Source: Pseudonocardia endophytica
GTDB taxonomy: Bacteria; Actinomycetota; Actinomycetes; Mycobacteriales; Pseudonocardiaceae
Assembly: GCF_004339565.1 (NCBI RefSeq)
Contig: NZ_SMFZ01000001.1
Span: 1,922,001 to 1,986,000, forward strand
DNA: 64,000 bases
Reading direction: 5' to 3'
Positions 2,874 through 21,537 of the stretch are shown one piece after another. The notes beneath the pieces were generated by a model, which was given only the letters and a program-made list of their open reading frames with translations, was not told the DNA's origin and did no database searches. Position numbers and translations under genes: made by a program. How positions within the stretch are numbered: the stretch's first letter is position 1; the number at the start of each line of letters is the position of its first letter.

Positions 2874-5057
2874 TCAGCCCGCGACGACCGGGTCCTCGAC
2901 GCGTTCCACCTCGACGAGGTTGTCCGAGAAGACACCGGCGTTGCCCATCTCGTTGTGCCGGTCGAGCGTGATCGTGTTGACGGTGCTGCCCGACGCCTTG
3001 TTCTGCCAGTGCCCGACGTTGGCCATCACGAGGCCCTTCATCACGACGTCGTCGAGCACGGCCGGTCCGAAGAACGACCCCCGGTCGTTGAACACCTTCA
3101 CGACGTCGCCGTCCGCGACGCCCCGCTCGGCGGCGTCCTCCGGATGGATCCACACCCGCTGGTCACCCTGTACGTCCTGCTTGTCGACGGCGTTGGCGTA
3201 CTGGCTGTTGAGGAACGCGTGCGGCTTCGGCGAGACGATGCTGAGCGGGTAACGCCGCGCGAGCTCGGGGTTCGACGACGGCGACTCGAACGGCGGGACG
3301 TAATCCGGCAGCGGGTCGAGCGGACCGCCCGGCTGCATCTTGTCGTACATCGAGCGCCACACCGGCACGACGAAGTTGCCGCCCTCGGCCAGCGACGACC
3401 GGAACTCGCACTTGCCGGACGGAGTCGGGAAGTTGCCCTCGGCGTGCGGGGCACGCTCCCCCGGCAGCCCGACGTTCAGGCGCGCCCAGCCGGTCTCCTT
3501 CAGCGAGTCGAACGTGATGCCCTGCAGCGCTGGCGCGTCCCAGTCGTGGAAGTCGCGCAGCATCTGCTCGTCGGTGCGGTCCCAGTAGTCGTCGGTGAAA
3601 CCCATGGTCGCGGCCAGGCGGCGGAACAGCTCCGAGTTCGGGACGCACTCGCCCGGCGGCGCGATCGCGGGCTGGTTCAGCGAGATGTAGAGGTGCCCCC
3701 AGGTGACCATGATGTCCAGCTGCTCGGCCTGCATGGTGGCGGGCAGGACGATGTCGGCGAACTTCGCGGTGTCGTTGACGAAGTGGTCGCTGACCACGGT
3801 GAACAGGTCCTCACGGGCCAGGCCCTCCATCGTCTTGGCCTGGGCGGGACCCTGCGAGACGGGGTTCGAGTTGTAGACGAACAGCGACTTGAGCGGCGGG
3901 TCGAGCTCCATCTCGCCGGTCAGTGCCATGCCGAGGTCCAGCTCGTTGATCACCCGGGTGCCCTCGGGGATCCACTCCGGCATGCAGATCCTGTCGAACA
4001 GCGTCGGGAACTCCCAGATCGGCATCTCCATCGTGCCGCCGCCGACGTGCCGCCAGGCCCCGACGAGCGCGGGCAGCGACGTGATCGCCCGGATCGCCTG
4101 CCCGCCGCCCCGGCTGCGCTCGATCGCCACGCCCTGGCGGATCGCGGCCGGCTGGCTCGTCGCGAACTCGCGGGCGAGCGTGCGGACGTCCTCGGCGGGA
4201 ATCCCGGTGATCTCCTCGACGCGCTCCGGCGGGTACTGCGCGGCACGCTCGGCGAGCTCGTCGTAGCCGACGGTGTAGCGCTCGACGTAGTCGGTGTCCG
4301 TCAGGCCCTGGGCGATGATCTCGTGGATCAGACCCATGGCCAGCGCGCCGTCGGTGCCCGGCCGGATCCGGATGTGCCAGTCGGCCTGGCGGGCGGTCCT
4401 GGTCCGGACCGGGTCGATCACGACGATCTTGGCACCGTTCTCCTTGCGCGCCTTGAGCAGGAACGGCCAGCCGTGCAGGTTCGTGCTGGTCATGTTCATG
4501 CCCCAGACGACGATGTAGCGCGAGTGCGCCATCGACTCGATGTCGAGACCGCCGGTCCCGCCGACGGTCATGTGCCACGCCGTCGAGGAGCCGGACTCGC
4601 AGTAGGTCTTCTCCGCCACGCTGGAGCCGAGCCGGTTGAAGAACGCGTCCCCGGACGTCAGACCGTTGAGCACGCCCTGGTGACCGAGGTAGGCGTGCGG
4701 CATGATCGCCTGGCTGCCGTACTCGGCGATGATGTCGGTCCACCGCTGCCTGATCTCGGCCAGCGCCTCGTCCCACGTGATCCGCTCGAACTCGCCCGCG
4801 CCCTTCGGGCCGACCCGGCGCATCGGGTACAGCAGGCGGTCGGACTGGTAGTGGTGCTCCGGGAAGTTCTTCAGCTTCACGCACAACCCGCCGCGCGTCA
4901 TCGGGTGGTCCGGGTCGCCCTTCACGTCGACGAGCCGGCCGTCCTCGACGTGGAACAGCATCGCGCAGGTGTCGGGGCAGTCGTGCGGGCACGCTCCGCG
5001 GACGATCGTGAGTTCGCGGCCGGTGCCGACGGAGCCGGCTTCGGGGGCGAGTGTCAT
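2874..5057 (-). CDS. molybdopterin-dependent oxidoreductase, DMSO-reductase superfamily
   Basis: This 727-residue protein begins with an iron-sulphur segment, CPHDCPDTCAML followed by GGLCVK (four Cys for a 4Fe-4S cluster). ITWDEAL, the YCESGSSTAWHM region near the Mo site, MGLIHEIIAQG and a C-terminal molydopterin dinucleotide-binding domain (SPKPHAFLNSQ, VWIHPEDAAERG, HNEMGNAGVF) follow. It transfers two electrons or an oxygen atom to an unknown substrate. There is no Tat signal, so it should be cytoplasmic. The ATG at 5057 is preceded by GGAGG; an upstream in-frame extension lacks such support. No electron-transfer or membrane subunit is adjacent, unlike the formate dehydrogenase at 16-21 kb. 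Confidence 0.85.
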   Translation of the reverse strand: MTLAPEAGSVGTGRELTIVRGACPHDCPDTCAMLFHVEDGRLVDVKGDPDHPMTRGGLCVKLKNFPEHHYQSDRLLYPMRRVGPKGAGEFERITWDEALAEIRQRWTDIIAEYGSQAIMPHAYLGHQGVLNGLTSGDAFFNRLGSSVAEKTYCESGSSTAWHMTVGGTGGLDIESMAHSRYIVVWGMNMTSTNLHGWPFLLKARKENGAKIVVIDPVRTRTARQADWHIRIRPGTDGALAMGLIHEIIAQGLTDTDYVERYTVGYDELAERAAQYPPERVEEITGIPAEDVRTLAREFATSQPAAIRQGVAIERSRGGGQAIRAITSLPALVGAWRHVGGGTMEMPIWEFPTLFDRICMPEWIPEGTRVINELDLGMALTGEMELDPPLKSLFVYNSNPVSQGPAQAKTMEGLAREDLFTVVSDHFVNDTAKFADIVLPATMQAEQLDIMVTWGHLYISLNQPAIAPPGECVPNSELFRRLAATMGFTDDYWDRTDEQMLRDFHDWDAPALQGITFDSLKETGWARLNVGLPGERAPHAEGNFPTPSGKCEFRSSLAEGGNFVVPVWRSMYDKMQPGGPLDPLPDYVPPFESPSSNPELARRYPLSIVSPKPHAFLNSQYANAVDKQDVQGDQRVWIHPEDAAERGVADGDVVKVFNDRGSFFGPAVLDDVVMKGLVMANVGHWQNKASGSTVNTITLDRHNEMGNAGVFSDNLVEVERVEDPVVAG

Positions 5058-5195
5058 GGTGGGCCTCCGCGCGTCGGGGTGATCAGGCGACCTCCAGTCA
5101 CGCAGCGATCCATTTCCTCCGCATTGCCGACCGGTAACCGCCTGTAAATCGGCCCCATTCCACCCGGCTCGTATCTGCATCTGCCGATAGTGCAG

Positions 5196-5691: not shown

Positions 5692-6828
5692 GTGTGCTAC
5701 ACGGTCAAGTCCATCGAGGACGTGCGGCGGCTCGTCGTCGCGACCCGTGGGCTGTCGGCGCTCTCCGACGGCACCACGCTGCTCGCCCGGGCGTGCCGGC
5801 GGATGTCCGAGCTGGTCGGTGCGGACACGGTCGCGATCGCGCTCTACGACGGCGCGGACGCCCTGACCGTGCAGGCCGCGGAGGGCGCGGCGCCGACCGG
5901 GATCCGCCTGCCTCGCAACGCAGGGATCGGATGGCGCGCCCTCGAGCGTTCCATGCCGGTCACCACCGGTGACTGCTCGGCCGACCCGCTCGACGGCCTG
6001 ACCGCATCGCTGGTGCCGGACGGCGTGCGCGGCCTGGCCGCGGTGCCGCTGACGTTCAACGAGAACTGGCTCGGCGTGCTCTACGCCGGGATGCGGGACG
6101 GCCGGGTGGCTCCGCGGACGACGCTGCTGATGACGGAGTTCGGGGCCTCACTCGCTCCGTTGCTGGTCACCGCGCTGCACGCGGACCGCGCGGGCGAGAT
6201 CGCGGTCGCGCAGGACCGGCAGCGGATCGCCCAGCAGCTGCACGACACGGCGGGCCAGCTTCTCTTCCGAATCTCGTTGTCGGCCAGAGAGATCCAGCAG
6301 TGCGCGGCCGCGGACCCGGACGGGGCGGTCGCCGCCGCACGGTCCATCGAGGACGCCGCCGCCCAGGCGTCGGGTCACCTGCGTGAGGCCATGCACAGCC
6401 TGCTGCCCGCCGCCGACGCGCTGCCGGTGACGTTGCGCCGCGACGCCGCGGGGTTCGCCGAACGCACCGGGATCGTGACCGAGGTCGTCACGCTCGGCAC
6501 GCCCGCGCACGCGGGCGCCCACGTCGAGGGCGTCGTGGTGTCGGCGCTGCGGGAGGGCCTGCACAACGTGGAGAAGCACGCGGGCGCCGGCGCCGTGCTC
6601 GTCTCGCTCGCCTACCAGTCACACCAGCTCACGCTCGCGATCGAGGACGACGGCAAGGGCCTGCCCGACGACGTCGACCTCCATCCCGTCCCGGGACGGT
6701 CGGCGGGCCTCGGCCTGTCCGGTCTGCTGCAGCGGGTGGCCGCCGGCGGGGGCACGCTGCGCCTGGGGCGCAACGACGACGGCGGCACCAGCCTGCGTGT
6801 CTCGCTGCCGTTGGTGGAGCACACGTGA
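5692..6828 (+). CDS. GAF-domain sensor histidine kinase, NarL-type (HisKA_3)
   Basis: This 378-residue protein has no membrane segments. Residues about 15-155 form a GAF domain and residues about 170-375 the kinase. The phospho-acceptor is His184 in DRQRIAQQLHDTAGQ. The ATP-binding N-box is REGLHNVEKHA, with DDGKGLPDD and GLGLSGLLQRV as the G-boxes. It should sense a cytoplasmic ligand and phosphorylate the response regulator encoded next, whose GTG start overlaps its stop (GTGA). The GTG at 5692 lies 6 bp after the cupin stop and lacks a strong ribosome binding site, which suggests coupling. Confidence 0.88.
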   Translation: MCYTVKSIEDVRRLVVATRGLSALSDGTTLLARACRRMSELVGADTVAIALYDGADALTVQAAEGAAPTGIRLPRNAGIGWRALERSMPVTTGDCSADPLDGLTASLVPDGVRGLAAVPLTFNENWLGVLYAGMRDGRVAPRTTLLMTEFGASLAPLLVTALHADRAGEIAVAQDRQRIAQQLHDTAGQLLFRISLSAREIQQCAAADPDGAVAAARSIEDAAAQASGHLREAMHSLLPAADALPVTLRRDAAGFAERTGIVTEVVTLGTPAHAGAHVEGVVVSALREGLHNVEKHAGAGAVLVSLAYQSHQLTLAIEDDGKGLPDDVDLHPVPGRSAGLGLSGLLQRVAAGGGTLRLGRNDDGGTSLRVSLPLVEHT

Positions 6829-7472
6829 CCGTGCCGACCACCGCCCGGACGCACACCGTCCTGATCGCCGACGACCACCCGCTCGTCGCGCACGGCATCG
6901 AGCGCGTCCTGGTCGGCGACGACTTCGCGGTCGTCGCCGTCTGCCACTCGGGGGCGGCGACACTCGAGGCCGCGCCCCGGCTGCGGCCCGACCTGGTGCT
7001 CCTCGACGTCCGGCTGGGAGACATGGACGGCGCCGACGTGTGCCGGCGCCTCGGCGACGAGGTGCCCGGCGCGCGCGTCGTCGTGCTGACGGCGTTCGGC
7101 GACGCCGGGCACCTCCGCCGCTGCCTGGAGTCCGGGGCGGCGGGTGTGCTGCTCAAGGGCACGCTCGACCTGGACCTCGCCCGGGCCCTGCGCGACGTGC
7201 TGGACGGCCGGATGGTCGTCGACGCCGGCGTCGCCCGCGAGCTCGAGACGGCCGGCGGGATCCTCGCGACACCCGGCGGGCCGCAGCTGCGCCCTCGTGA
7301 GCTGGACGTGCTCCGCCTGATGGCGGCGGGAACGACCACCCGCGAGATCGCCGGGACGCTGGGGCTGACCGTCAACACCGTGCGGACGTACACGCAGTCA
7401 CTGATGACCCGGCTGGACGCCCACACCCGCGTCCAGGCGATCGTCCGCGCCCAGCAGCTGCGGCTGATCTGA
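6825..7472 (+). CDS. response regulator with LuxR-type DNA-binding domain
   Basis: This 215-residue protein has a receiver domain (acidic pair in IADDHP, phosphorylation Asp61 in LVLLDVRLGDMDG, LTAFGD, and Lys in GVLLKG). Its C-terminal LuxR HTH reads LRPRELDVLRLMAAGTTTRE then GLTVNTVRTYTQSLMTRL. It overlaps the kinase gene by 4 bp. The targets are unknown; the upstream cupin and divergent molybdoenzyme promoters are the nearest candidates. It ends 3 bp from the convergent sulfatase-like gene. Confidence 0.9.
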   Translation: MTVPTTARTHTVLIADDHPLVAHGIERVLVGDDFAVVAVCHSGAATLEAAPRLRPDLVLLDVRLGDMDGADVCRRLGDEVPGARVVVLTAFGDAGHLRRCLESGAAGVLLKGTLDLDLARALRDVLDGRMVVDAGVARELETAGGILATPGGPQLRPRELDVLRLMAAGTTTREIAGTLGLTVNTVRTYTQSLMTRLDAHTRVQAIVRAQQLRLI

Positions 7473-7475
7473 CGG

Positions 7476-9125
7476 CTACCGGGCGAACGCCGACAGGAAC
7501 CGGTCCCGCACGTCCTCCATCCGCCACACCGGAGCGTCCGGACCGGGCTTCAGGCCCGGCTGCCACCCCCACCCGGAGATGCGGTCGAGGACCGTCGGGT
7601 CGCGCGCCACGATCGTCACCGGCACGTCCTTCGACGCGCCGGAGCCGGTCACCGCCGGTGTGGGCTGGTGATCGCCGAGGAAGACCAGGACCGTGTCGTC
7701 GTCGCCGTGCAGCTGCAGGTAGGAGACCAGGGTGTCCAGCGAGTACGCGATCGACCGGCCGTACTCGGCCTTCATCTTCAGCGGGTCGTCGTAGCCGACC
7801 GGTCCGGGGTCGGGCGCGTGGGACTGGGCGTCGAAGACGGAGCCGTCGCCGATCCCGGACCAGTCCACCGGCTGCGGGATCGGGCCGAACGGCCAGTGGC
7901 TGGACAGCAACGGGATCTCGGTCATGAGCGGTCCACGGCCGGGGCGGCCGTGCTCGAGGCGTTCGTAGGCGGCCAGCGTGTACTGGTCGGGCGTGTGGAA
8001 GCCGCCGAAAGCGGTCCCGCGGTAGCCGAGCGACTCGTAGGGATGGACCCGGTCGAAGTCGTAGACCCGGCCCTCCGGCCAGGGGCCCGACGTCCCGGGC
8101 ATCACGGCCGCCGTCTCCCACCCGGCTTCCTTGAACGCCCCGCTCAGGGTCACCCGGTCGCTCCCGGCGAACTGCTCGAACTGCTTCTGGTTGGAGACAC
8201 GCAGCCCGGACTGGAACGTCGCGTGCGCCATCCAGCTCCCGCCGCCCGCGATCGGCGAGGTCAGCCAGGCGCTGCGCGCGGAGAACCCGGACGCGGCGAG
8301 GCGGCGGGTGCCGTCGTCGAGCGTCGGGGTCACCGACGGCGCGATGGCCGGGTCCTCGACCGCGCTGCGGCCGTAGCTCTCGACGAACGTGACCAGCACG
8401 TCCTTGCCGCGCAGACCACCGAGCAGGTCCTTCCCCGGCACGCCGCGGTACGGATCGGTGGCGAACCGGGCGGCGAACGCGCGCTGGTCGGCGATGCTCT
8501 GCGGGATCTGCTGCGCCTTCTGCGTGATCAGCGACGCGACGCTGCGCGACGCCAGCGGGACGGGTGCGACGAGCTGGGCGCCGAGCGCGGCCAGCGTCAC
8601 CCAGCACGCGGCGAGCACCGCGACGGTGCGCAGGCCGGTGAGCCGGTGCGGCCGGACCACGCGTGCGAGCCGGCGTGCGGACAACGCCATCAGCACGGCC
8701 AGCGCCACCGCGAGCAGGCACGCGACGACGACGGCGGCGACCGCGGCCACCGACCCCGCCGAGTCCTCGACGAACGACACGCCGCTCCCGACCTGCGCCC
8801 AGTCGGCGATCGGGTCGAACGGCCGGCCCAGCGCCGCCAGGAAGCCCATGTCGATCGCGCGGAGCACGGTCAGGCCTGCGAGCAGGACGCCGCCCGCGGT
8901 CGCCGCCCGACGGCCCGCCCGCGGCGGGAGCACCAGCACGAGCAGCGCCGCGACCAGGCCCTCGACCGGCAGCCGCAGGAACGCGGCCGGCCCGAGCTGG
9001 CCGATCTCGCGGGGCAGCACGAGCGCCACGAACAGCAGCAGCGCCGCACCGGCGGTGAGCAGCCGGCTCCGGTGGCGGGGCTGCGACGGGGCGGTCCGGA
9101 CCGGACGGGGGAGCGTCGTGGTCAT
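7476..9125 (-). CDS. membrane sulfatase-fold phosphoglycerol/LtaS-like transferase
   Basis: The 549-residue protein starts with about five membrane helices (within residues 20-200), followed by an extracytoplasmic alkaline-phosphatase-superfamily domain. VLVTFVESYGRS carries the metal-binding Glu, SPIAGGGSWMAHATF probably the nucleophile Ser, and VLVFLGDHQPTPAV the metal-binding Asp-His. LtaS-type enzymes move phosphoglycerol or a related group from a lipid to a sugar or polymer outside the cell. The ATG at 9125 overlaps the stop of the upstream GTP cyclohydrolase gene (TGATG), so translation is coupled. That places this enzyme in the same pathway as the GTP-opening step. A sulfatase or other phosphotransferase role is possible. 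Confidence 0.75.
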   Translation of the reverse strand: MTTTLPRPVRTAPSQPRHRSRLLTAGAALLLFVALVLPREIGQLGPAAFLRLPVEGLVAALLVLVLPPRAGRRAATAGGVLLAGLTVLRAIDMGFLAALGRPFDPIADWAQVGSGVSFVEDSAGSVAAVAAVVVACLLAVALAVLMALSARRLARVVRPHRLTGLRTVAVLAACWVTLAALGAQLVAPVPLASRSVASLITQKAQQIPQSIADQRAFAARFATDPYRGVPGKDLLGGLRGKDVLVTFVESYGRSAVEDPAIAPSVTPTLDDGTRRLAASGFSARSAWLTSPIAGGGSWMAHATFQSGLRVSNQKQFEQFAGSDRVTLSGAFKEAGWETAAVMPGTSGPWPEGRVYDFDRVHPYESLGYRGTAFGGFHTPDQYTLAAYERLEHGRPGRGPLMTEIPLLSSHWPFGPIPQPVDWSGIGDGSVFDAQSHAPDPGPVGYDDPLKMKAEYGRSIAYSLDTLVSYLQLHGDDDTVLVFLGDHQPTPAVTGSGASKDVPVTIVARDPTVLDRISGWGWQPGLKPGPDAPVWRMEDVRDRFLSAFAR

Positions 9126-9748
9126 CAGTGCGCCGGATCCAGATGCGGGAGCCGATGGCCGAGCCGGTCCCGCTTGGCCGTCAGGTATGCGCGGTTGTGC
9201 TCGTCGGCCGCTTCCAGCAGCGGCTCCATCCGGGACACGACGACGCCGTGGCGGGTCAGCGCCCGTTCCTTGTCCGGGTTGTTCGTCAGCAGCCGCACGG
9301 ACGCGACACCGAGGTGGCGCAGCACGCGGGCGGCGGCCCGGAAGTCGCGCACGTCGACCGGGAGGCCCAGCGCCGTCGCGGAGTCGACGGTGTCCAGCCC
9401 GGCGTCCTGCAGGACGTGCGTGCGGACCTTGGCGAGCAGGCCGATCCCGCGGCCCTCGTGACCGCGCAGGTAGACGACGACGCCGCAGTCCTGGGCCAGC
9501 ACCGCGTCCACCGCCGAGTCGAGCTGGGCGCCGCACTCGCAGCGCAGCGCGCCGAACACGTCGCCGGTCAGGCACTCCGAGTGCACGCGGACGAGCACGT
9601 CGGTGGCGCCGCGCGGGTCGCCGTGCACCAGAGCGAGGTGCTCCGCGCCCCCTTCGTGCTCGCGGAAAGCAACGGCGCGGAACCGCCCGCGCCGCGTCGT
9701 GAGCTCGGACTCCGCTGTCTCGAGGCGGTCCTGCTCCGGTATCTCCAC
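9125..9748 (-). CDS. GTP cyclohydrolase II paralogue (RibA-like)
   Basis: This 207-residue protein spans a complete RibA domain. Zinc ligands are Cys59, Cys70 and Cys72 (SECLTGDVFGALRCECG). GHEGRGIGL binds phosphate, and the catalytic Arg is kept in VDVRDF. RibA opens the imidazole ring of GTP and removes formate and pyrophosphate. The Tyr of KIRAYxLQD (Tyr105 in E. coli) is His111 here (KVRTHVLQD). In Streptomyces coelicolor a RibA paralogue with Met at this site stops at the formylated intermediate FAPy. No other rib gene is nearby. The start is GTG, with GGGAGG 7 nt upstream. A role outside riboflavin synthesis is inferred. Confidence 0.85.
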   Translation of the reverse strand: MEIPEQDRLETAESELTTRRGRFRAVAFREHEGGAEHLALVHGDPRGATDVLVRVHSECLTGDVFGALRCECGAQLDSAVDAVLAQDCGVVVYLRGHEGRGIGLLAKVRTHVLQDAGLDTVDSATALGLPVDVRDFRAAARVLRHLGVASVRLLTNNPDKERALTRHGVVVSRMEPLLEAADEHNRAYLTAKRDRLGHRLPHLDPAH

Positions 9749-9793
9749 CGTGTGTCCTCCCTGTCGTCCGACGGCCGTGGCACGCTCCGCTGC

Positions 9794-10486
9794 GTGGAGC
9801 TCCTCCCGGCCGACACCTCCCCCGATGTCCATGAGCGCTCCGCCGATGTGGCGGTGCTGCCGATCGGCAGCCTCGAGCAGCACGGGCCGCACCTGCCGCT
9901 GACGACCGACACCGTCGTCGCGGCGACCGTGGCCGCCCGGATCGCGGACGCCCACCCCGTCCGCCTGCTCCCCCCGGTCACGTTCTCCTGCTCCCACGAG
10001 CACGCCGCATGGCCGGGCACCGTCAGCCTGTCCGCGACGACTCTCGTCGCGATCGTCCGCGACGTCGCGGACTCGCTGCGGCGCGACGGCGTCCGGACCC
10101 TGGTCCTGGTCAACGGCCACGGCGGCAACTACGTCCTGGGCAACGTCGTGCAGGAGGCCTCGCTCGGCCCGCTGCCGATGGCGCTGTTCCCGCAGGTGCA
10201 CGACTGGGCCGCGGCCCGCGTCGCGGCCGGGCTCGTCACCTCCGACGAGGCGGACATGCACGCCGGGGAGCTGGAGACGTCGGTCCTGCTGCACTTCCAC
10301 CCCCACCTGGTCAGGCCGCACTACGCACGGGCCGACCACGACGCGGAGCACCGGCCGCACCTGCTGAGCCGGGGGCTGCAGGAGTACTCGGAGTCCGGGG
10401 TCGTGGGACGTCCGTCGCTGGCGAGCGCGGAGAAGGGACGGGCAGTGGTGGCGAGTCTGGTGTCGTCGTTCGCCGCCTACCGGTGA
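9794..10486 (+). CDS. creatininase-family amidohydrolase (ArfB/MftE-like)
   Basis: The product is about 230 residues with the metal-site motifs of the creatininase family: GSLEQHGPHLPLTTDT, LVNGHGGN and MHAGELETS. Members include creatininase, MftE and archaeal ArfB, which deformylates the FAPy product of GTP ring opening. It is divergent from a RibA paralogue expected to release FAPy, so the ArfB reaction is an attractive inference. MftE-type peptide cleavage is the alternative, but no other mft genes are visible. Start choice is uncertain (GTG 9794, or GTG 9752). Its 3' end overlaps the convergent flippase-like gene by 176 bp. Confidence 0.75.
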   Translation: MELLPADTSPDVHERSADVAVLPIGSLEQHGPHLPLTTDTVVAATVAARIADAHPVRLLPPVTFSCSHEHAAWPGTVSLSATTLVAIVRDVADSLRRDGVRTLVLVNGHGGNYVLGNVVQEASLGPLPMALFPQVHDWAAARVAAGLVTSDEADMHAGELETSVLLHFHPHLVRPHYARADHDAEHRPHLLSRGLQEYSESGVVGRPSLASAEKGRAVVASLVSSFAAYR

Positions 10487-11402
10487 GCAGCACGATCCCG
10501 CCGGGCAGGCACGCGACGAGCCCGAGCGTCCCGTACAGGACGGCCGTCGCGAGTCCTTGCGCCGCAGGGAGTCCGACGGCGGCGAACCCGGCCGCGAGCG
10601 CTGCCTCCCGCGGGCCCCAGCCGCCGACGCCGACCGGCAGGCTCATCGCGAGCAGGCCCAGCACGAGCAGCGGCAGCAGCTCGGCGAGCGGTGCCGTGAC
10701 CCCGACCGCGCGGGCGGCGAGCACGAACGTCGCGACGTAGCCGGCGAGCGCGCCGGCCGAGGCGAGCAGGACGCCCGGGTGCACCAGCAGCCGCAGGCCA
10801 CGCAGCCGCGAGCGCAGGAACCAGCCCGCCACCAGGAGCGCGGCGACGACCGCCGCGGCGACCCAGCCCGTCGCCGACGTGACGCCGGCCGCCTCCAGCA
10901 GCGTCGGCCGCAGCGCCAGCACGACCACGCCGGCCCCGACCAGGACCACCTGGCCGCCGAGCCGGTCGAGCACGACCGACCGCACGCCGCCGCCCAGGTC
11001 GCCGACGCGTCGTCCGTGCCCGACGGCGCGTTCGACGTCGCCGAGCACCCCGGCCGGCAGCACGGAGTTGAGGAACGTGGACCGGTAGTAGGCGGCGAAC
11101 GCGGACCGGCCGTCCAGCGGCTGCCCGAGCCGGCCGGTGATCAGGCACCAGCGCCAGGCGTTGCAGGAGATCGACACCGCACCGAGCGCGACGGCGGCCG
11201 CCAGCGTCGGGACGTCCAGCGCGCGCAGCCCGTCGAGGACGGGGCCGGCGCCGACCTTGGACGCGACCGCGACGACGATCGCCACCCCGGCGACCGGCTT
11301 GAGCACGCGCAGTGCTCTCGCCACCCGGCCGGCTCCGCCCGCGCCCGACCCCGGTGTCGTCCGCGCCCGACCGGCTCCGCCGGTGACGGCCGGCCCGGTC
11401 AC
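10311..11402 (-). CDS. flippase-like integral membrane protein (LPG synthase TM domain/UPF0104)
   Basis: This 363-residue protein has about eight hydrophobic helices. Family signatures are CNAWRWCLITGRLG, YYRSTFLNSVLPAGVLGDVERA and SLPVGVGGWGPREAALAAGF. Proteins of this family flip or bind lipid-linked substrates and often accompany glycosyltransferases. The GTG start overlaps the stop of the GT4 gene (GTGA). After the last helix comes a Pro/Arg-rich tail of about 60 residues, encoded opposite the creatininase 3' end; it looks non-conserved and may be read-through of an ancestral stop. Confidence 0.8.
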   Translation of the reverse strand: MTGPAVTGGAGRARTTPGSGAGGAGRVARALRVLKPVAGVAIVVAVASKVGAGPVLDGLRALDVPTLAAAVALGAVSISCNAWRWCLITGRLGQPLDGRSAFAAYYRSTFLNSVLPAGVLGDVERAVGHGRRVGDLGGGVRSVVLDRLGGQVVLVGAGVVVLALRPTLLEAAGVTSATGWVAAAVVAALLVAGWFLRSRLRGLRLLVHPGVLLASAGALAGYVATFVLAARAVGVTAPLAELLPLLVLGLLAMSLPVGVGGWGPREAALAAGFAAVGLPAAQGLATAVLYGTLGLVACLPGGIVLLTGRRRTTTPDSPPLPVPSPRSPATDVPRPRTPSTPAAPGSAGAAGAPRRGRPVRSAA

Positions 11403-12499
11403 GAGAGCACCCCGTCCAGCAGGCGGGCCGTGACGTCCCAGCCGTCGAGCCGGGAGCGACGGGCGTGCGCGGCCTGCCGCGCGGTGGCCCGCAGGTTTGC
11501 GTCGGTCAGCCAGTGCCGCAACACCTCCGCCAGAGCGACGGCGTCGTCCGGTGGCACGAGCAGGCCGGGGACGCCGCCGCCGGGGGCGCGGCCGAGTGTC
11601 TCCGGAACACCGCCGGTCGCCGACGCGAGCACCGGGATCCCGCGGGCCAGCGCCTCGGTGACGACCATGCCGTAGGTCTCGGTCCGCGAGGGGAGGACCA
11701 GCAGGTCGGTGTCCGACCAGACGTCGTCCAGCTCGTCGCCGGTGATCGCGCCGGTCACCCGCACCCGGTCCCCGAGCCGCCCGGCCGCCTCGCGCAGTGC
11801 CACCGCATACCCGGGATCGCGCCAGGGCCCGCTGATCCGTGCCGTCCACCGCAGGTCGGTCAGGGCACCGAGGGCGTCGACGAGCACGTCGTGCCCCTTG
11901 GTCCGGGTGTGCGCGCCGAGCGCGAGCAGGCTGGAGCCGTCCGCGCGCACCGGCGCCAGCGGTGCCGGATCGACACCGGGCGGCGCGACGTGGACGCGGC
12001 CGATCGGCAGCTCGTGCAGCGCGGTGACCCGGCCTGCCGCCCACGAGCTGGTGACGACGACGGCGTGCGCTGCCCGCAGCACGGCGTGCTCCCGGTCCGA
12101 CCGCCAGGCCGCGGTCTCGGCGTCGAGGCCGTGCTCGTCGCCGAGCGGGAGGTGGACGACCACCACGATCCGCAGCCGCCGGCACTCGGGCACGACGACG
12201 TCCGGCACCCCGCACGCGACCAGGCCGTCGACCAGCACGTCGGCGCCGTCCGCGACGGATGCCAGCGCGTCGGCCAGACGGTCCCGCGCGGCGGCGTCCG
12301 GGTCCGGCCAGTCGCCCTCGACGAGCAGCTCGGCCACGGCGCGCCCGACCCCCGGAAGCGCCGCGCACAGCCGCCGTCCGTAGACGTTGCCGCCGCTCGG
12401 TGCCGACGGATCGTCCACACCGGACGGAAGGACGGCGTGCACGACACCGCGGGCCAGCCGGAGCGGCACGGAGACGCGGTCGGTGCGGACGGCGCTCAC
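11399..12499 (-). CDS. family 4 glycosyltransferase
   Basis: This 366-residue GT-B protein has the glycine-rich N-terminal element GGNVYGRRL. The C-terminal half has the donor-binding pattern: [16 protein letters not shown], then [22 protein letters not shown] (E-x7-E) and GGVPETLG. It should transfer a sugar from a nucleotide donor with retention. It overlaps the PTPS-like gene upstream and the flippase-like gene downstream by 4 bp each, so all three are translationally coupled. The acceptor may be the pterin- or pyrimidine-like product of the cluster, or a lipid carrier; this is inferred from context. Confidence 0.82.
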
Positions 12500-12894
12500 A
12501 GGTCACGCTCGTAGCTCGCACTGGCCACGTGCGACTCGTGCAGCGTCACCTCCACACCGGACAGACCGCGCGCCCCCTCGCCGAGCGCGCCGCCGTGCAC
12601 CCGGGCGACGAGCCGGTCCGCGACCACCCGCGCCAGGAACTCGGTCGTCGTGTTGACGCCCGCGAAGTCAGGGTGCTCGTCGAGGTTGCGGTAGTTCAGG
12701 TCCGCCAGCACCTCGCCGAGCTGCGTCGTCGCGAGCCCGATGTCGACCACGATCCCGTCGGCGTCCAGGTCGGTGCGCCGGAACGTCGCGTCCACCACGA
12801 ACGTCGCGCCGTGCAGCGCCTGCGCCGGTCCGAACACCTCCCCGCGGAAGCTGTGCGCGACCATGACGTGGTCCCGGACGGTGATGCGGTACAC
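12496..12894 (-). CDS. 6-pyruvoyl-tetrahydropterin synthase/QueD-fold protein with altered active site
   Basis: This 132-residue T-fold protein is recognised by [27 protein letters not shown], the [15 protein letters not shown] helix and [13 protein letters not shown]. Of the three zinc-binding His, His14 and His28 remain. The second His of the HGH motif is Ala30, the catalytic Cys four residues before His28 is Ala24, and the LDH motif reads LNY. It therefore probably does not catalyse the QueD or PTPS reaction, but may bind a pterin or aminopyrimidine. GTG start with GGGAGG upstream; 9 bp after the dehydrogenase stop. Confidence 0.78.
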
Positions 12895-12903
12895 GAGGCC
12901 TCC

Positions 12904-13884
12904 CTACGGATCGCTGTAGGAGACACGCACGCAGAGCGCGGGAGGTTCACCGGCGGCCATCCCGGCGAGGATCGCGGGCAGCTCGTCGAACCGGCACTGG
13001 CCGCTGACCAGGGCGTCGAAGCGCGGATCGGCGAGCAGCTCCATCGCCAACGTCATTCGTTCGGCGTAGCCGCGACGGGACGCCCTGCGCGGCGACACGG
13101 TGCCGACCTGGCTGGCGCGCACGGTGAGCCGCCTCGAGTGGAACGCCTCCCCCAGCGGCAGCTCGACGCGGCGGTCGCCGTACCAGGACAGCTCCACCAC
13201 CTCGCCCTCGACGGCGAGCAGCTCCAGCGCGCGGGACAGCCCGGCCGACGTCGCGCTCGCGTGCACGACGAGGTCGCAGTCCCCGGCCGCGTCGTCGGGG
13301 TGCGCGAACCCCACGCCGAGCGCGAGCGCGACGACCGCACGGGACGCGTCGACGTCGACGAGCTCGACGCGCGCGCCCGGGATCCCGGCGAGCACCCCGG
13401 CCACCGCGGACCCGACCATCCCCCCGCCGATGACCGCGATCCGGTCCCCGACCAGCGGTGCGGCGTCCCACACGGCGTTCACGGCCGTCTCCACCGTGCC
13501 GGCCAGCACGGCGCGCTCCGCCGGGACGTCGGGCGGCAACGGGGTGACGGCCGGGGCGGGCACGACGAACCGGTCCTGGTGCGGGTGCAGGCAGAACACG
13601 GTGCGCCCGACGAGATCGGCCGGCCCGTGCTCGACGTCGCCGACGGCGAGGTAGCCGTACTTGACCGGTGCCGGGAAGTCGCCCTCCTGGAACGGGGCGC
13701 GCATGGCGGCGTGCTGGCTCTCCGGCACCTCGCCGCGGAACACGAGCGTCTCGGTGCCGCGGCTGACGCCGGTGAAGCGGGTGCGGACGACGACGTCGTC
13801 CGGGCCGGGCTCCGGGAGCGGGGCCTCGCGGATCTCGGCGCGGCCGGGCTCGGTGAGCCAGAGCGCTCTGGCCGTCGGGGACAT
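12904..13884 (-). CDS. zinc-type alcohol dehydrogenase-like protein (MDR family)
   Basis: This 326-residue medium-chain dehydrogenase has a GroES-like N-terminal half ([16 protein letters not shown]) and a Rossmann half ([19 protein letters not shown], then VELVDVD). The [14 protein letters not shown] pattern resembles the SorE/BchC-like MDR group. Classical Cys-rich structural zinc motifs are absent. It heads the coupled minus-strand run dehydrogenase-PTPS-GT4-flippase. The ATG at 13884 has GGAGAGG upstream. It likely oxidises or reduces a polyol or sugar-alcohol part of the cluster product; the substrate is unknown. Confidence 0.78.
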
Positions 13885-13932
13885 CGGGAACCTCTCCGTG
13901 AACCGGATCCGCCCGGCGTGCGTGTACCGGGC

Positions 13933-14787
13933 ATGACGCTTCCCCCGACCGTCACCGTATCGGCCCGCGGCGCCGACATCATCACCTGCGCCGCGGCCGT
14001 CCTCCTGCTGGTCAGTGCGCTGGGCCCGGCGGGGGTCGGCCCGTTCGGGCTGCTCGCCGCTACCGGGAACGCGGTCGTGGTGCTCGTGCTGCTGGACGGG
14101 GCGCTGCGACGCGCGGGGCGGGACACGCTCGGCCCGGCCGATCGGGTGACGTTGGTGCGGGCGCTGCTCGGCGCGTGCGTCACCGGGTTCGTCGTCGACG
14201 GGCTGGTGTCCGGCTCGCCGGCGGTCGCCGCCCTGGTCGCCGTCGCGGCCGTCGCGCTGGCGCTGGACGCGGTGGACGGGCAGGTCGCCCGCCGCACCGG
14301 GACCGTGTCCGCCGTCGGTGCGCGGTTCGACATGGAGTCCGACGCCTGGTTGATCATGGTGCTGTCCGTCCAGGTCGCGACGGAGCTGGGCGCGTGGGTG
14401 CTGGCGATCGGCCTGATGCGCTACGCGTTCGTCGCGGCCGGCCGGGCGGTCCCGTGGCTGCGCGGCCCGCTAACCCCGGCGCGCGGCTCGAAGACGATCG
14501 CCGCCGTGCAGGGCGTCGTGCTCGCGACCGCCGCATCCGGGCTGATCGGCGTGCTCGCCGGCACCGTGCTCGTCGCCGTGGCGCTGGCGTTGCTGTGCTT
14601 CTCGTTCGGCCGCGACGTGGTGCGCCTGCACAGGGCGAAGGCGATACCGGTCGTCGTGATCCCGCAGCAGCGCACGGTGGGTACTGTCTCCCACCGTGCC
14701 GCCCGAGAACGCCGAGACGCATCTGCGGCGGGTGTTCGACGAGCACGGGCGGGCCATGCAGATGTATGCGACCCGGTTGCTGGGTGA
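13933..14787 (+). CDS. CDP-alcohol phosphatidyltransferase family protein
   Basis: The 284-residue membrane protein carries the complete catalytic signature D-G-x2-A-R-x8-G-x3-D-x3-D, starting at Asp115 in DGQVARRTG and ending at FDMESD. Six or so hydrophobic helices surround it. Enzymes of this family join a CDP-activated alcohol to a second alcohol and form phosphodiester lipids. It is divergent from the dehydrogenase gene by 48 bp. Its last 31 codons overlap the start of the ECF sigma gene, and this basic tail lacks obvious conservation. It probably supplies a lipid or phospho-alcohol part of the cluster product. Confidence 0.85.
14682..14695 (+). promoter_or_regulatory. predicted leaderless promoter of the sigma factor gene
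   Basis: TACTGT at 14682-14687 fits the TANNNT -10 consensus and is followed by exactly 8 nt before the GTG start at 14696. Transcription would begin at or next to the start codon, giving a leaderless mRNA. It lies within the 3' end of the CDP-alcohol transferase gene. Confidence 0.5.
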
Positions 14788-15223
14788 TCCCGTGGCGGCC
14801 GAGGACGTCGTGCAGGAAGCCCTGATCCGGGCCTGGCGCAACCCGGACGTGTTCACGAACAGCAAGGGCTCCGTGCGCGGCTGGCTGCTGACCGTCGTGC
14901 GCAACATCGTGATCGACCGCAGCCGCCGGGCCGGCGCCCGCCCGCCCGAGGTGGCCGAGGACGTCGACCTGGCCGAACGGATCCCCGGCCAGCGCGACCA
15001 CGCCGAGGACGTCGCGGACAAGCTCGTCGTGCACGACGCGCTCGGGTCGCTCTCCCCGGAGCACCGGGCCGTCCTCGAGCAGCTCTACCTGCACGGACGC
15101 AACCTGGACGAGACGGCGGCCGCTCTTGACGTGCCGAAGGGGACCGTGAAGTCGCGCTCGTTCTACGCGATCCGGACGCTGCGCGAGCGGCTCGCACACC
15201 AGCCCGGTGAGGCCGGCCGATGA
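14696..15223 (+). CDS. ECF-type RNA polymerase sigma factor
   Basis: This 175-residue protein has sigma region 2 ([18 protein letters not shown], then AEDVVQEALIRAWRNPD, WLLTVVRNIVIDRSR) and region 4 (LGSLSPEHRAVLEQLYLHGR, then LDVPKGTVKSRSFYAIRTLR). The ATG of an anti-sigma gene overlaps its stop (ATGA), the usual arrangement. The pattern resembles SigK/SigL-type ECF factors controlled by membrane anti-sigma proteins. Its regulon is unknown; the adjoining lipid/GTP cluster is a candidate. Confidence 0.9.
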   Translation: MPPENAETHLRRVFDEHGRAMQMYATRLLGDPVAAEDVVQEALIRAWRNPDVFTNSKGSVRGWLLTVVRNIVIDRSRRAGARPPEVAEDVDLAERIPGQRDHAEDVADKLVVHDALGSLSPEHRAVLEQLYLHGRNLDETAAALDVPKGTVKSRSFYAIRTLRERLAHQPGEAGR

Positions 15224-15927
15224 CACCCCCGATCGAACCGGCCCACGATCCCGAGGAGCTCACCGCGCACGCGATGGGCCTGCTCGACGGCCCGGAGGCG
15301 GCCGCCGTCGAGCAGCACCTGCGCGGCTGCGCCGCCTGCCGTCGCGAGTGGACGGAGATCAGGGAGACGGTCGACCTGGTCGGCTCGCTCCCGCCGGAGA
15401 TGTTCGCCGACGGGCCGCCGTCGAGCGACCTGCCGTTGCGCCGGGCACTGCGCGAGGTCCGCGACGAGCCGGTGCGCCACCGGATGCCGCGGCGCAGGCC
15501 GGTCGGACGGCTGCTGGCCGTCGCGGCCGCCGCGCTCGTGCTGGTGGTCGGCGGCGGCCTGGTCGGGCGCCTGACCGCACCCGAGCCGTCGGCGACGTCG
15601 GTCGCCGCGGGCCCCGGTGCGATCACGGCGTTCGGTCAGCAGGGGACGGTGCGGATGACCGCGTCCGTCGCGCCCGCGGCCGGGTGGGTCCGGGTCGCGA
15701 CCGAGGTCCAGGGCATCACGCCCGGCAAGCGCTGCACGCTGGAGATCGAGAACGCGGACGGGAAGGTCGAGCCGGCCGCGTTCTGGATGAGCGCGCCGCC
15801 GCGCGAACCCGGCCGTCCGACGCCGGTGGCCGGGTCCGCGATCATCGACCCGGCGTCGGTCCGCGCCGTCTCCGTCCGGGACGACACCGGTGCCACGCTC
15901 GTCCGCGTCCCGCTGTCGCTGACCTGA
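15220..15927 (+). CDS. membrane anti-sigma factor with zinc finger
   Basis: This 235-residue protein starts with a zinc-binding anti-sigma domain (AHAMGLLDGPEAAAVEQHL followed by H-x3-C-x2-C in HLRGCAACRREW). One membrane helix follows near residues 102-122 (LLAVAAAALVLVVGGGLVG) and then an extracytoplasmic beta-rich domain of about 110 residues. It should hold the ECF sigma factor at the membrane until an envelope signal is received. Translation is coupled to the sigma gene by an ATGA overlap. Confidence 0.88.
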   Translation: MTPPIEPAHDPEELTAHAMGLLDGPEAAAVEQHLRGCAACRREWTEIRETVDLVGSLPPEMFADGPPSSDLPLRRALREVRDEPVRHRMPRRRPVGRLLAVAAAALVLVVGGGLVGRLTAPEPSATSVAAGPGAITAFGQQGTVRMTASVAPAAGWVRVATEVQGITPGKRCTLEIENADGKVEPAAFWMSAPPREPGRPTPVAGSAIIDPASVRAVSVRDDTGATLVRVPLSLT

Positions 15928-17055: not shown

Positions 17056-18086
17056 CGCCGCCTCCCCAGGAACGAGACGATCCCGGCCAGCGCGAACGCG
17101 CCCGCCGCCGTCGCCGCCCGGCGCCACATCTCACCGGCGTGCGTGGTCGCGACGACCGGGTCCGGCGGCAGCCCGTAGACCTCCGGCTCGTCGAGCAGCA
17201 GGAAGAACGCGCCGTCGCCGCCGACCCCGTCGTTCTCGTCGTGCCCGTACAACCGGGCCTCGGTGACGCCGAGATCGTGCAGCTTCTCGACGCGCTGCGC
17301 GGCGCGCTCGCGCAGCTCGTCCAGCTCGCCGAACTGGATGGAGTCGGTCGGGCACGCCTTCGCGCAGGCGGGCTCCAGCCCGTCGTGCAGGCGGTCGTAG
17401 CAGAGCGTGCACTTCTGGGCGCGGCCGTCGCCGACCCGCCGGTCGATCACGCCGTACGGGCAGCCGGAGACGCAGTAGCCGCACCCGTTGCAGATGTCCT
17501 GCTGCACGACGACGGTGCCGAACTCGGTACGGAACAGCGCACCCGTCGGGCAGACGTCCAGGCACCCGGCGTGCGTGCAGTGCTTGCACACGTCGGACGC
17601 CATCAGCCAGCGGAAGTCGGTGCGCGTCTCGGCGCCGGTCCCGTCGCCGGGCTTCGAGAACGACGGCATCCCCAGCGCCCGGGGCTCGGCGCCCGGCGGG
17701 CGCGGCTCGGTCCCCAGCTCGCCGCCCGCGAGCGGTGCGGCGGCCAGACCTCCGGCGACGGCGGCCTGCGCGACGCCGGTCGCGCTCGGCCCGGCCGGTT
17801 CGGTGTCCACACCGGAGTCCTGGTGCCCTGACCGGCTCGGCTGCTCGATGAACGCCACGTGCCGCCACGTGTCCGCGCCCAGCGAGCCCGTGTTGTCGAA
17901 CGACATCCCGAGCAGGGCGAACCCGTCGTCCGGGACGGCGTTCCACTGCTTGCAGGCGACCTCGCAGGCCTTGCAGCCGATGCAGACGGACGTGTCGGTG
18001 AAGAACCCCATGCGCGGCGGGTGCTCCGGCTCGTAGCCCGCGTCGCCGGACACGTCGTGCAGCGGGCCGCGGAGGCTGTTGGTCAT
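17052..18086 (-). CDS. fdhB: 4Fe-4S iron-sulphur subunit of formate dehydrogenase
   Basis: The 344-residue protein carries four ferredoxin-like Cys clusters: CIGCKACEVACKQWN, CKHCTHAGCLDVCPTGAL, CNGCGYCVSGCPYGV and CTLCYDRLHDGLEPACAKAC. Between the first two is a low-complexity Gly/Ala/Pro-rich insert of about 70 residues that FdnH/FdhB proteins usually lack. The C-terminus has one hydrophobic segment (WRRAATAAGAFALAGIVSFL), probably a membrane anchor. It passes electrons from the catalytic subunit to the NrfD-like subunit. ATGA overlaps couple it on both sides. Confidence 0.9.
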   Translation of the reverse strand: MTNSLRGPLHDVSGDAGYEPEHPPRMGFFTDTSVCIGCKACEVACKQWNAVPDDGFALLGMSFDNTGSLGADTWRHVAFIEQPSRSGHQDSGVDTEPAGPSATGVAQAAVAGGLAAAPLAGGELGTEPRPPGAEPRALGMPSFSKPGDGTGAETRTDFRWLMASDVCKHCTHAGCLDVCPTGALFRTEFGTVVVQQDICNGCGYCVSGCPYGVIDRRVGDGRAQKCTLCYDRLHDGLEPACAKACPTDSIQFGELDELRERAAQRVEKLHDLGVTEARLYGHDENDGVGGDGAFFLLLDEPEVYGLPPDPVVATTHAGEMWRRAATAAGAFALAGIVSFLGRRR

Positions 18087-21000
18087 GCGTCCTCCCGTTC
18101 GAGGCCGAACCCGGGCACGCCGGGGGCGGTGTCGTCCGGCCGCACCGTCGGGTCGAGGTGCGGTGTCGGGTCGTCGTGGGCCAGGGCGGTGTTCGTGGCA
18201 GGCGTGATCCCGGCGAGCGACCGGACCTCCTCCAGCAGCGCGGTCAGCTCGGCCCCACGCGGTCGCGGGCCCCTCCGGACGTCGCAGGTGATCACCTTGG
18301 TCTCCTGGATGAAGACGTTGGGGCCCAGCACGACGCCGAACAGGTCGTTGACGACGTCGCCGCGGACGAGGCCGTTGGCCCCCCAGTGGTAGGGCAGCCA
18401 CACCTGGTGCACGTCCCGGTCGCCGAGGCGCAGCGGCCCCATCCGGTCGGTCACCATCACCCTGGCCTCGACCGCGGAGCGGCTCGTCACGACGTGTGCC
18501 GTGCCCATGTGCTCGAGACCGCGCTCCCGCGCGAGCTCGGGCGACACCTCGACGAACAGCTCCGGCTGCAGCTCGGCCAGGAACGGCAGCTGGCGGCTCA
18601 TCGCACCCGCCGTGTGGTGCTCGGTCAGCCGGGACGTGGTCAGCACGTACGGGAACACCTCCCAGCCCTTCTCCCCGACGGCCGGGTTCGACGGGTTGTC
18701 CTTGCGCCCGAACACCTTCCGCGTCGGGTTGGACTGCTGGAGGTACAGCTCGTTGCGGACCGGCGACTCGTGCGGCTCGTAGTGCGTGGGCAGGGGCCCG
18801 TCCGCGACGCCGAGCGGCGCGAACAGCCAGGCCTTGCCGTCCGGCTGCATGACGAACGCGTCGTCACCGCCGAGTGCGGCCGGTCCGACGGCGTCCGGTG
18901 CCGGTTCGTACCCGGGCGGGGTGGTCGCGACGAAGTCCGGCACGTCGTTCCCGGTCCAGCGCCCGGCGTCGTCGTCCCACCACAGCAACTTCTTGCGCTC
19001 GCTCCACGGACGTCCCTGCGGGTCGGCCGAGGCCCGGTTGTAGATCACCCGCCGGTTCATCGGCCAGGTCCAGCCCCACTCCGGCGCGTCGTCCGGGTCG
19101 CTCTCCGGGACCCGCCGCGCGGCCCGGTTCACCCCGCCCGCGTAGACGCCGCTGTAGATCCAGCATCCGCACGAGGTGGTCCCGTCGGCCTTCAGGTCGG
19201 TGAAGCCGTCGACGAGCTCGCCGGTGGTCAGGTCGTGGCCGTTGATCCGGCGCAGGACGTCGTCCGGGGACGGCTCCGCCCACTCGTCCCCGTCACCGTC
19301 GGCAGAGCCCTCGGTCTCGTAGTCCCACGCCAGGTTCCGCACGGGCAGGTCGCGCGGGTCGGCCGAGTCCGCCAGCCGCTCCCTGACCAGCCGGCCCAGG
19401 TGGTAGGTGAACCACAGGTCCGACCGGCGGTCGTCGACGGGCTCGACGGCCTTGGTGCGCCACTGCACCATCCGCTGGGTCTGGGTGAACGTGCCGTCCT
19501 TCTCGACGTGCGACGCGGCCGGCATGAGAAACACCTCGGTCGCGCACTGCTCCGGCACGATCTCGCCGGTCTCGACCTCCGGCGAGTCCCTCCAGAACGT
19601 CGCCGTCTCGATCTCGGCGAGGTCGCGCACGACCATCCAGTCCAGGTTCGCCATCCCGAGGCGCTGGAGCTTGCCGTGCGCCGAACCGACGGCCGGGTTC
19701 TGGCCGAGCACGAAGTAGCCGTGCACCCGCCCGTCGACCATGTCCATGACCGTGCGGTACGTGCCGTGGTCACCGTCGATGCGGGGCAGCCAGCCGTAGC
19801 CGAAGTCGTTGTCCGGCGTGGCCGCGTCGCCGAAGTACTCCTTGAGCAGCGAGACCGTGTAGGCGTCGCTGTCGTAGCCGAAGCCCTTGCGCCCGTGCTC
19901 CCTGATCGCGTCCACGTAGGACGCCAGGTCGTCCTGGCCCGCGTGCGGCATCGGCAGGTAGCCGGGCAGCAGGTTGAACAGCGTCGGGATGTCCGTGGAG
20001 CCCTGGATGCTGGCGTGGCCGCGCAGCGCGAAGATCCCGCCGCCCGGGCGCCCGACGTTGCCGAGCAGCAGCTGCAGGATCGCGCCGCACCGGATGTACT
20101 GCGCACCGACGGTGTGCTGGGTCCAGCCGACGCTGTAGACCAGGGAGGTGGTGCGCTCCCGGCCGGAGTTCCCGGTCCAGGCCCGGCACACGTCGTCGAA
20201 CTGCTCGGGGGAGACGCCGCAGGTCCGCCGCACCATCTCCGGCGTGTAGCGGGCGTAGTGGCGCCTGAGGACCTGGAACACGCAGCGGGGGTGCTCCAGT
20301 GTCGGGTCGGAGACAGGGTCGCCGTCGGCGTCGGTCTCCAGGCGCCAGCTGGCCGTGTCGTACGTGCCGGTGGCCTCGTCGTAGCCGGAGAAGATCCCGT
20401 CGTTGTCCTCGGCGTCCACGTAGTCCTCACCGACGAGGTACGACGCGTTCGTGTAGGCCGCGACGTACTCGCGGAACGCGAGGTCGTTGTCCAGGACGTG
20501 GTGGATCACCCCGCCCAGGAACGCGATGTCCGAGCCCGCGCGCAGCCGAACGTAGGTGTCCGCGACGGCGCTGGTCCGCGTGAACCGCGGGTCGATGTGG
20601 ATCACCCGTGCGCCGCGGGCCTTCGCCTCCATCACCCACTGGAACCCGACCGGGTGCGCCTCGGCCATGTTCGAGCCCATGATGATGATGCAGTCGGCCT
20701 CCACCAGGTTCTGCTGGTGGTTCGTCGCGCCGCCACGACCGAACGAGGTCCCCAGACCGGGGACGGTGGCGGAATGTCAAATACGCGCCTGGTTCTCGAT
20801 CTGCACCGCGCCCCACGACGTGAACAGCTTCTTGAGGAGGTAGTTCTCCTCGTTGTCCAGCGCGGCGCCGCCGAGAGCGGCGAGACCCATCGTGCGGCGC
20901 AGCGGCCGGCCGTCGGCGTCGGTGTCCTGCCATCCTCGGGCGCGGGCGTCGACGACCCGGTCGGCGATCATCTCCATCGCCGTGTCCAGGTCGAGCTCTG

Positions 21001-21346: not shown

Positions 21347-21353
21347 GCGACCG

Positions 21354-21359
21354 ACCCTA
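21354..21359 (-). promoter_or_regulatory. predicted leaderless -10 box of the formate dehydrogenase operon
   Basis: TAGGGT on the reverse strand matches TANNNT and is followed by 7 nt before the GTG at 21346, which favours that start and a leaderless transcript. No TTGAC-like -35 is seen at the right distance, which would fit control by an activator such as the LysR protein encoded upstream. The 191-bp gap to the LysR gene holds no other gene. Confidence 0.42.
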
Positions 21360-21537
21360 AGCGCCCGGCTCTCACGTCGCCCTGTTGATCGAAAGGTGCG
21401 AAGGGGTGATTCACGCCGTGGATCGCAGCGGCATCGTGCACCACGTCGACGCGCACGCTCACCCCGGCGCCGCAACGGGTCGTCGACGACGTGACGGCCC
21501 CGATCCCGGTCGGCCGCGGCGCCGGAGGCGGCGTGAG

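Follow-up and report, generated by a model that had tools for sequence, protein, structure and literature searches.

What would a bacterium make with a GTP cyclohydrolase II (GCHII) encoded among glycosyltransferase, flippase and phospholipid genes? We asked this of a ten-gene cluster at positions 7476 to 15927 of a 64,000-nucleotide stretch of Pseudonocardia endophytica DNA (NZ_SMFZ01000001.1, positions 1,922,001 to 1,986,000), the whole of which we call the window. We propose that the cluster is a branch off early riboflavin biosynthesis that would give a glycosylated, lipid-linked headgroup flipped across the membrane, and we put the probability of this reading at roughly 55%. If true, the first steps of a vitamin pathway would have been copied and re-used for a molecule of the cell surface or membrane that has yet to be isolated, in actinobacteria that include many antibiotic-producing streptomycetes. 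The proposal would also offer a testable account of a GTP cyclohydrolase II without its active-site Tyr and of a catalytically altered 6-pyruvoyltetrahydropterin synthase (PTPS) fold.

The gene set recurs across actinobacteria

To ask whether these genes travel together, as the first-pass annotation had proposed beforehand as a check, we collected 139 loci through their PTPS-like gene: 80 named loci, 58 from a class sample, and the window. The named loci, the top 80 among at least 587 PTPS relatives from a genome scan, are biased to close relatives, and one genome or more is counted twice (L066 and L126). With presence counted at 60 bits or above against trimmed family profiles, PTPS was found in 139 loci (by construction), an MDR dehydrogenase in 136, a GT4 glycosyltransferase in 135, a CDP-alcohol transferase in 127, a flippase-like protein in 123, a methyltransferase in 122, RibA in 107 and a creatininase-family protein in 90, followed by RibD_C (40), an LtaS-like protein (33), an ECF sigma factor (12) and an anti-sigma factor (3). 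The list of eight families drawn up in the first annotation was incomplete, since the methyltransferase of 122 loci and the RibD_C of 40 are both missing from the window's cluster.

The neighbors are also arranged consistently. MDR adjoined PTPS in 133 loci, PTPS adjoined GT4 in 135 and GT4 adjoined the methyltransferase in 113. The common order runs CDP-alcohol transferase (divergent), MDR, PTPS, GT4, methyltransferase, flippase, creatininase (reversed) and RibA. It was seen in 11 genera among the named loci, the best 80 of at least 587 (Actinomadura, Amycolatopsis, Streptomyces, Pseudonocardia, Nocardiopsis, Planotetraspora, Phytohabitans, Micromonospora, Saccharopolyspora, Sciscionella and Actinacidiphila), and again in the even class sample, indicating that the order is more than chance. 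In that sample 57 of 394 genomes, belonging to 26 of 138 genera, had a PTPS match at E ≤ 1e-20, and all 58 of its PTPS places were examined; an even phylum sample gave a match above 90 bits in 10 of 396 genomes. The cluster is thus common in the class, and laboratory streptomycetes carry it too. In contrast, at six QueD-type PTPS loci (L090, L093, L095-L098) none of seven cluster families (MDR, GT4, methyltransferase, flippase, CDP-alcohol transferase, LtaS-like and creatininase) reached 40 bits, with RibA lying within 20 kb at three of the six and a weak RibD_C at two. We conclude that the cluster genes almost certainly form one functional unit, and the idea of a single cluster came through the comparison across genera intact. 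Two loci (L144 and L019) carry an insertion of about 3-4 kb between GT4 and the methyltransferase in an otherwise tight run; it holds a long open frame whose start, by eye, resembles an MFS transporter.

In the window the genes are as follows.

7476..9125, minus strand: LtaS-like membrane-anchored protein of the sulfatase/alkaline-phosphatase superfamily, 549 amino acids (PF00884 Sulfatase, 29.5 bits, cut-off 25)
9125..9748, minus strand: RibA paralog (GTP cyclohydrolase II) with His at the E. coli Tyr105 position (PF00925 GTP_cyclohydro2, 198.7 bits)
9794..10486, alternative start 9752, plus strand: creatininase-family hydrolase, proposed deformylase (PF02633 Creatininase, 228 bits)
10311..11402, minus strand: flippase-like LPG_synthase_TM protein (PF03706, 102.2 bits)
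11399..12499, minus strand: GT4 glycosyltransferase (Pfam glycosyl transferase group 1, about 87 bits)
12496..12894, minus strand: PTPS-like T-fold protein, ortholog of SCO6650 (Pfam PTPS, 78.7 bits; PDB 3d7j, 218 bits)
12904..13884, minus strand: MDR dehydrogenase lacking the zinc-ligand signature (predicted structure; Pfam 18.6-18.8 bits, sub-threshold)
13933..14787, plus strand: CDP-alcohol phosphatidyltransferase (PF01066 CDP-OH_P_transf, 42.9 bits; motif intact)
14696..15223, plus strand: ECF sigma factor, a neighbor probably outside the pathway (Pfam sigma-70 regions 2 and 4)
15220..15927, plus strand: zinc-finger anti-sigma factor, a neighbor probably outside the pathway (zf-HC2, 29.7 bits)

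All ten genes are thus of the families first named for them, with Pfam support for each except the MDR dehydrogenase, which was identified by its predicted structure. Tight coupling, which had also been claimed, holds for the MDR-PTPS-GT4-flippase run on the minus strand (a 9-base gap, then two 4-base overlaps) and for RibA and the LtaS-like gene, where the RibA stop overlaps the LtaS-like start by one base. It does not extend to a single operon, because the creatininase, CDP-alcohol transferase, sigma and anti-sigma genes lie on the plus strand and the remaining six on the minus strand. RibA and the creatininase form a divergent pair with 45 bases between them, as do MDR and the CDP-alcohol transferase with 48; all of these spacings depend on the start codon selected for each gene. 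The conserved portion of the flippase-like gene stops near 10488, leaving a tail that overlaps the creatininase gene, and that of the CDP-alcohol transferase spans 14002-14640.

Membrane genes, fusions and a possible soluble product

The CDP-alcohol transferase motif, D-x2-DG-x2-AR-x8-G-x3-D-x3-D, is intact in the window and conserved in relatives. The LtaS-like protein has five predicted transmembrane segments followed by a domain that the positive-inside pattern places outside the cell, a predicted topology that fits a lipid route, and its structural model matches MCR-1, LtaP, LtaS, EptC and YejM. LtaS is characterized by a five-transmembrane anchor, an outside domain and a Thr nucleophile; the window protein has a conserved Ser at the place expected for that Thr, as judged without superposition.

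Several steps appear to be linked by fusion. We found single open frames that join the CDP-alcohol transferase to the LtaS-like protein (13 loci), RibA to RibD_C (five loci) and GT4 to the methyltransferase (L175 and the Rubrobacter locus L101), which suggests that these pathway steps belong together. A glycosylated, lipid-linked product had been the first annotation's simplest reading of the cluster; it stays conditional here, and the CDP-alcohol-transferase-LtaS-like fusions strengthen it. A flippase-RibA open frame in L054 was discounted as a fusion, since it runs antisense through the creatininase gene.

The membrane genes might nevertheless be a separate envelope module, with the remaining, heterocycle genes (RibA, creatininase, PTPS-like, MDR and GT4) producing a soluble glycoside of a pterin or a pyrimidine. 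Glycosyltransferases that make pteridine glycosides are known from other systems (PMC5683033), and in Rubrobacteraceae, where 24 genomes had a PTPS match, a RibD_C-MDR-PTPS-GT4 core occurs in 7/7 loci fetched, with no CDP-alcohol transferase, flippase or RibA detected in any of the seven. Against this, genes of both halves are intermingled and conserved together in the larger set: flippase and methyltransferase are adjacent in 108/139 loci, and the CDP-alcohol transferase adjoins MDR in 117/139 (91 divergent and 26 codirectional). We consider a soluble glycoside possible though unlikely.

The Rubrobacteraceae core is informative in its own right. Among PDB entries, the RibD_C protein of Rubrobacter locus L092 is nearest to 2,5-diamino-6-ribosylamino-pyrimidinone 5′-phosphate reductases (6p8c, 139 bits; 2azn, 132 bits), with the best RibD at 110 bits. 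We rejected the possibility that the core replaces FolE in dihydroneopterin supply, as FolE was matched in 30/31 genomes searched, including 23 of 24 Rubrobacteraceae; the single genome without a FolE match (G270) is 82% complete. A side route to pterin through the core is possible. FolB (dihydroneopterin aldolase) lies near the core in two loci (L094:12101-12478 and L089:7736-8230), and L094 also has a weak acyltransferase-like gene nearby. In three Rubrobacteraceae genomes the FolE match (G216:C73, G026:C15 and G259:C230) falls into two or three pieces within one open frame of 552-864 amino acids, separated by long in-frame stretches, as inteins would give.

The PTPS-like protein has lost its catalytic residues

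The PTPS-like protein had been called degenerate, and its alignment bears this out. The catalytic Cys, the Asp-His pair and one zinc His are replaced, while two of the three zinc His and a Glu near the C-terminus are retained; FGPA..LHGAT and LNYRNLD stand where the PTPS catalytic residues would be, as in the SCO6650-type family. Its sole PDB match at E ≤ 0.001 is 3d7j (218 bits), which is SCO6650 of Streptomyces coelicolor, a protein that is reportedly zinc-free and inactive as a PTPS. The QueD model scored 35.7 bits, under its cut-off of 89, and this is the genome's only PTPS-family match. A queuosine role was rejected because the genome's only protein of this family is without the catalytic residues.

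These replacements, together with the reported inactivity of SCO6650, raise the possibility that the protein is catalytically dead and serves as a binding or regulatory subunit, in which case the product would be an open pyrimidine and not a pterin. However, in a small group of eight relatives, 80-85% identical to the window protein, many columns do not vary, and in the Rubrobacter forms all three zinc His persist even though the Cys and Asp-His pair are gone. We regard a dead subunit as quite unlikely.

RibA has lost a tyrosine and has a probable creatininase-family partner

In E. coli RibA, Tyr105 has a role in completing deformylation. The window RibA has a GCHII domain with conserved zinc ligands Cys54, 65 and 67 and has His at this position. 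In 107 cluster RibA proteins the residue was Met in 53, His in 27, Tyr in 17, Leu in 6, Gln in 2, Cys in 1 and Ser in 1, so that 90/107 have a residue other than Tyr. This tabulation omits L089-L101 and 32 cluster loci without a RibA of at least 150 bits; the omission takes in three QueD-type loci (L090, L096 and L098) that have Tyr and lack a creatininase. Both the domain and the residue state agree with the opening of GTP by a specialized RibA paralog, as the first-pass annotation had suggested.

Creatininase presence followed the residue closely: it was found in 88/89 loci with a Met, His, Leu, Gln or Cys RibA, in 0/17 with Tyr and in 0/1 with Ser. RibD_C showed the opposite distribution, lying within 2.5 kb in 18/18 loci with a Tyr or Ser RibA versus 10/89 of the others. 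This association with loss of the RibA Tyr, though indirect, makes the creatininase the probable deformylase of the RibA product. Its metal-ligand motifs (EQHG, TD, HGGN and HAGE) are conserved across 62 aligned members, and its match to the ArfB model NF033501 is 38 bits, under the cut-off of 180. In the available text of PMC9478397, the creatininase-family protein Sm-BrbF is a proven deformylase of the same formylated pyrimidine, with Sinorhizobium and Brucella as the organisms concerned. Judged from residues and gene content, RibA and the creatininase together very probably yield a deformylated pyrimidine.

Would the RibA copy then only boost riboflavin precursor supply, among unrelated neighbors? 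It is a genuine GTP cyclohydrolase II with its zinc Cys intact, and BrbF-type deformylases work in riboflavin synthesis in rhizobia (PMC9478397, available text). However, Pfam identifies no ribB, ribE, ribH or deaminase among the cluster's ten genes, the gene set is co-conserved in 139 loci, and the same genome has four further GCHII-family genes, three of which keep the Tyr and one, a divergent copy, has Leu. We therefore find a supply role very unlikely. The absence of riboflavin, queuosine and folate genes, noted early on, holds for the cluster; the genome as a whole has 17 RibD_C-family matches, a FolE and five GCHII-family matches, the window's copy and four others. That the creatininase is an MftE-like peptidase in a peptide-maturing cluster is extremely unlikely, for although its best NCBIfam model is MftE (TIGR03964, 143.1 bits), the score does not reach that model's cut-off (172), the ten genes include neither a radical-SAM nor a RiPP family, and its presence tracks the RibA residue state.

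A proposed pathway to a lipid-linked headgroup

From the gene identities, the conservation of the set, the residue states and the fusions, we infer the reactions, their order, their substrates and the product. RibA without its active-site Tyr would open GTP and release a still-formylated pyrimidine, 2-amino-5-formylamino-6-ribosylamino-4(3H)-pyrimidinone 5′-phosphate, from which the creatininase-family protein would strip the formyl group. In many relatives RibD_C may then reduce the ribose to ribitol. Remodeling of the diaminopyrimidine would come next, carried out by MDR together with the PTPS-like T-fold protein. The predicted MDR structure (pLDDT 86) is similar to dehydrogenases that act on threonine, sorbitol, idonate and xylitol. 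GT4, whose relatives include the cyanobacterial enzyme 5ze7 at 46 bits, far below its best match, would attach a sugar, and in most relatives the methyltransferase would attach a methyl group. Linkage to a phospholipid would be the task of the CDP-alcohol transferase, and flipping of the lipid-linked product that of the LPG_synthase_TM protein. Where a locus has the LtaS-like enzyme, this could pass the phospho-headgroup on to an extracellular acceptor. Taken as a separate claim, a lipid-linked heterocyclic product has about even odds.

We tentatively suggest a more specific version, which we think doubtful as it stands, in which the product is a new class of actinobacterial membrane lipid. 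Its headgroup would be a glycosylated pyrimidine-ribitol or a pterin made from the first riboflavin intermediates; it would be flipped, and the LtaS-like enzyme would move it to a surface polymer, perhaps on aerial hyphae or spores. In this version the sugar chain would be reduced by RibD_C and then re-oxidized by MDR, two steps that together would stand in for an Amadori shift. Ring closure would fall to the zinc-less T-fold protein, and a pterin would form with no need for GTP cyclohydrolase I.

Several observations weigh against a lipid-linked branch of riboflavin biosynthesis. RibA was not found in 32/139 loci and creatininase in 49/139; contig ends cut some of these, and others are truly without the gene within the stretch. 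One locus (L148) is an exception to the RibA/creatininase association, and an independent-pairs sign test of that association gave p = 1. A quick RibA tree built with the residue column removed gave two changes for the creatininase, two for the Tyr state and seven for the residue itself. The split is thus essentially one evolutionary switch with single losses, not statistically independent, and is suggestive. The window's cluster has no RibD_C and no methyltransferase, and a search of the rest of the genome, made without a control, found no methyltransferase elsewhere; both steps would therefore be skipped or supplied in trans. The L092 RibD_C scored 159 bits against the archaeal-type reductase model, under the cut-off of 186, and a Streptomyces RibD_C (L059) scored 100 bits for that model versus 104 for RibD, showing no preference. 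The MDR protein lacks the zinc-ligand signature. The LtaS-like predicted structure is weak (pLDDT 68), and sulfatases match it equally well, so that its fold list mixes transferases and sulfatases. Finally, SCO6655 expression anticorrelates with predicted flux (-0.61), according to the available portion of PMC2853524; the other GCHII there, SCO2687, likewise anticorrelates (-0.52), which makes the SCO6655 correlation uninformative.

Neighboring genes

The ECF sigma/anti-sigma pair had been counted with the cluster. With an anti-sigma factor in only 3/139 loci and an ECF sigma factor above 60 bits in 12/139, it is probably no part of the pathway and looks like a local neighbor, one that may still act in local regulation. 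Directly adjoining the LtaS-like gene are a GAF histidine kinase and a LuxR-type response regulator (5692-7472, plus strand), and a molybdopterin oxidoreductase lies at 2874-5180 (minus strand). A second, formate-dehydrogenase-like molybdopterin oxidoreductase at 18083-21361 (minus strand) has one in-frame TGA at 20779-20777, in the context NQARI-TGA-HSATV, which is likely a selenocysteine codon. The same genome has a tRNA-Sec match of 75 bits, above the cut-off.

Comparison with known systems

The window's cluster belongs to the same family as S. coelicolor SCO6650-SCO6655; the PTPS-like proteins are orthologous (218 bits), and the six genes from PTPS to RibA would fit that numbering. The same gene order, with a Met-type RibA, occurs in Streptomyces loci such as L017. 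The window differs in having His and not Met in RibA, in lacking the methyltransferase, in coupling the LtaS-like gene to RibA, and in its ECF pair. In 2006 Spoonamore et al. reportedly studied the GTP cyclohydrolase II paralogs of S. coelicolor, among which SCO6655 is said to have Met at the Tyr105 position and to stop at the formylated product. By gene order SCO6652 would be the cluster methyltransferase, and Table 3 of PMC3610822 gives its RNA as raised by log2 4.3 at 48 h and 4.1 at 72 h relative to 16 h mycelium. Our literature searches, which left out most subscription papers, found no paper on this pathway and no product of either the window or the S. coelicolor cluster. The earlier view that no described pathway has this gene set thus stands in that literature, but the S. 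coelicolor proteins had been studied before, as PDB 3d7j for SCO6650 attests.

Sinorhizobium BrbF and archaeal ArfB share the creatininase family and the metal-ligand motifs with the window protein, which in its proposed role would likewise finish what a GTP cyclohydrolase begins, by taking off the formyl group that remains. BrbF serves riboflavin, as the available text of PMC9478397 describes, unlike the role proposed for the window creatininase. QueD and 6-pyruvoyltetrahydropterin synthase are of the same PTPS family as the window form, which differs by replacement of the Cys, the Asp-His pair and one zinc His. The pteridine glycoside pathways (Chlorobium PGT and the cyanobacterial tetrahydrobiopterin glucosyltransferase) are alike in that a glycosyltransferase acts on a pterin; they begin from GTP cyclohydrolase I, and we know of no lipid-linking genes in them. 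Lastly, headgroup transferases of the LtaS, LtaP, EptC and MCR type share with the LtaS-like protein a membrane anchor and an outside alkaline-phosphatase-type domain. The LtaS-like protein has weak sequence kinship to them (4uop, 24 bits) and is set apart by its fusion to a CDP-alcohol transferase in the 13 loci described above.

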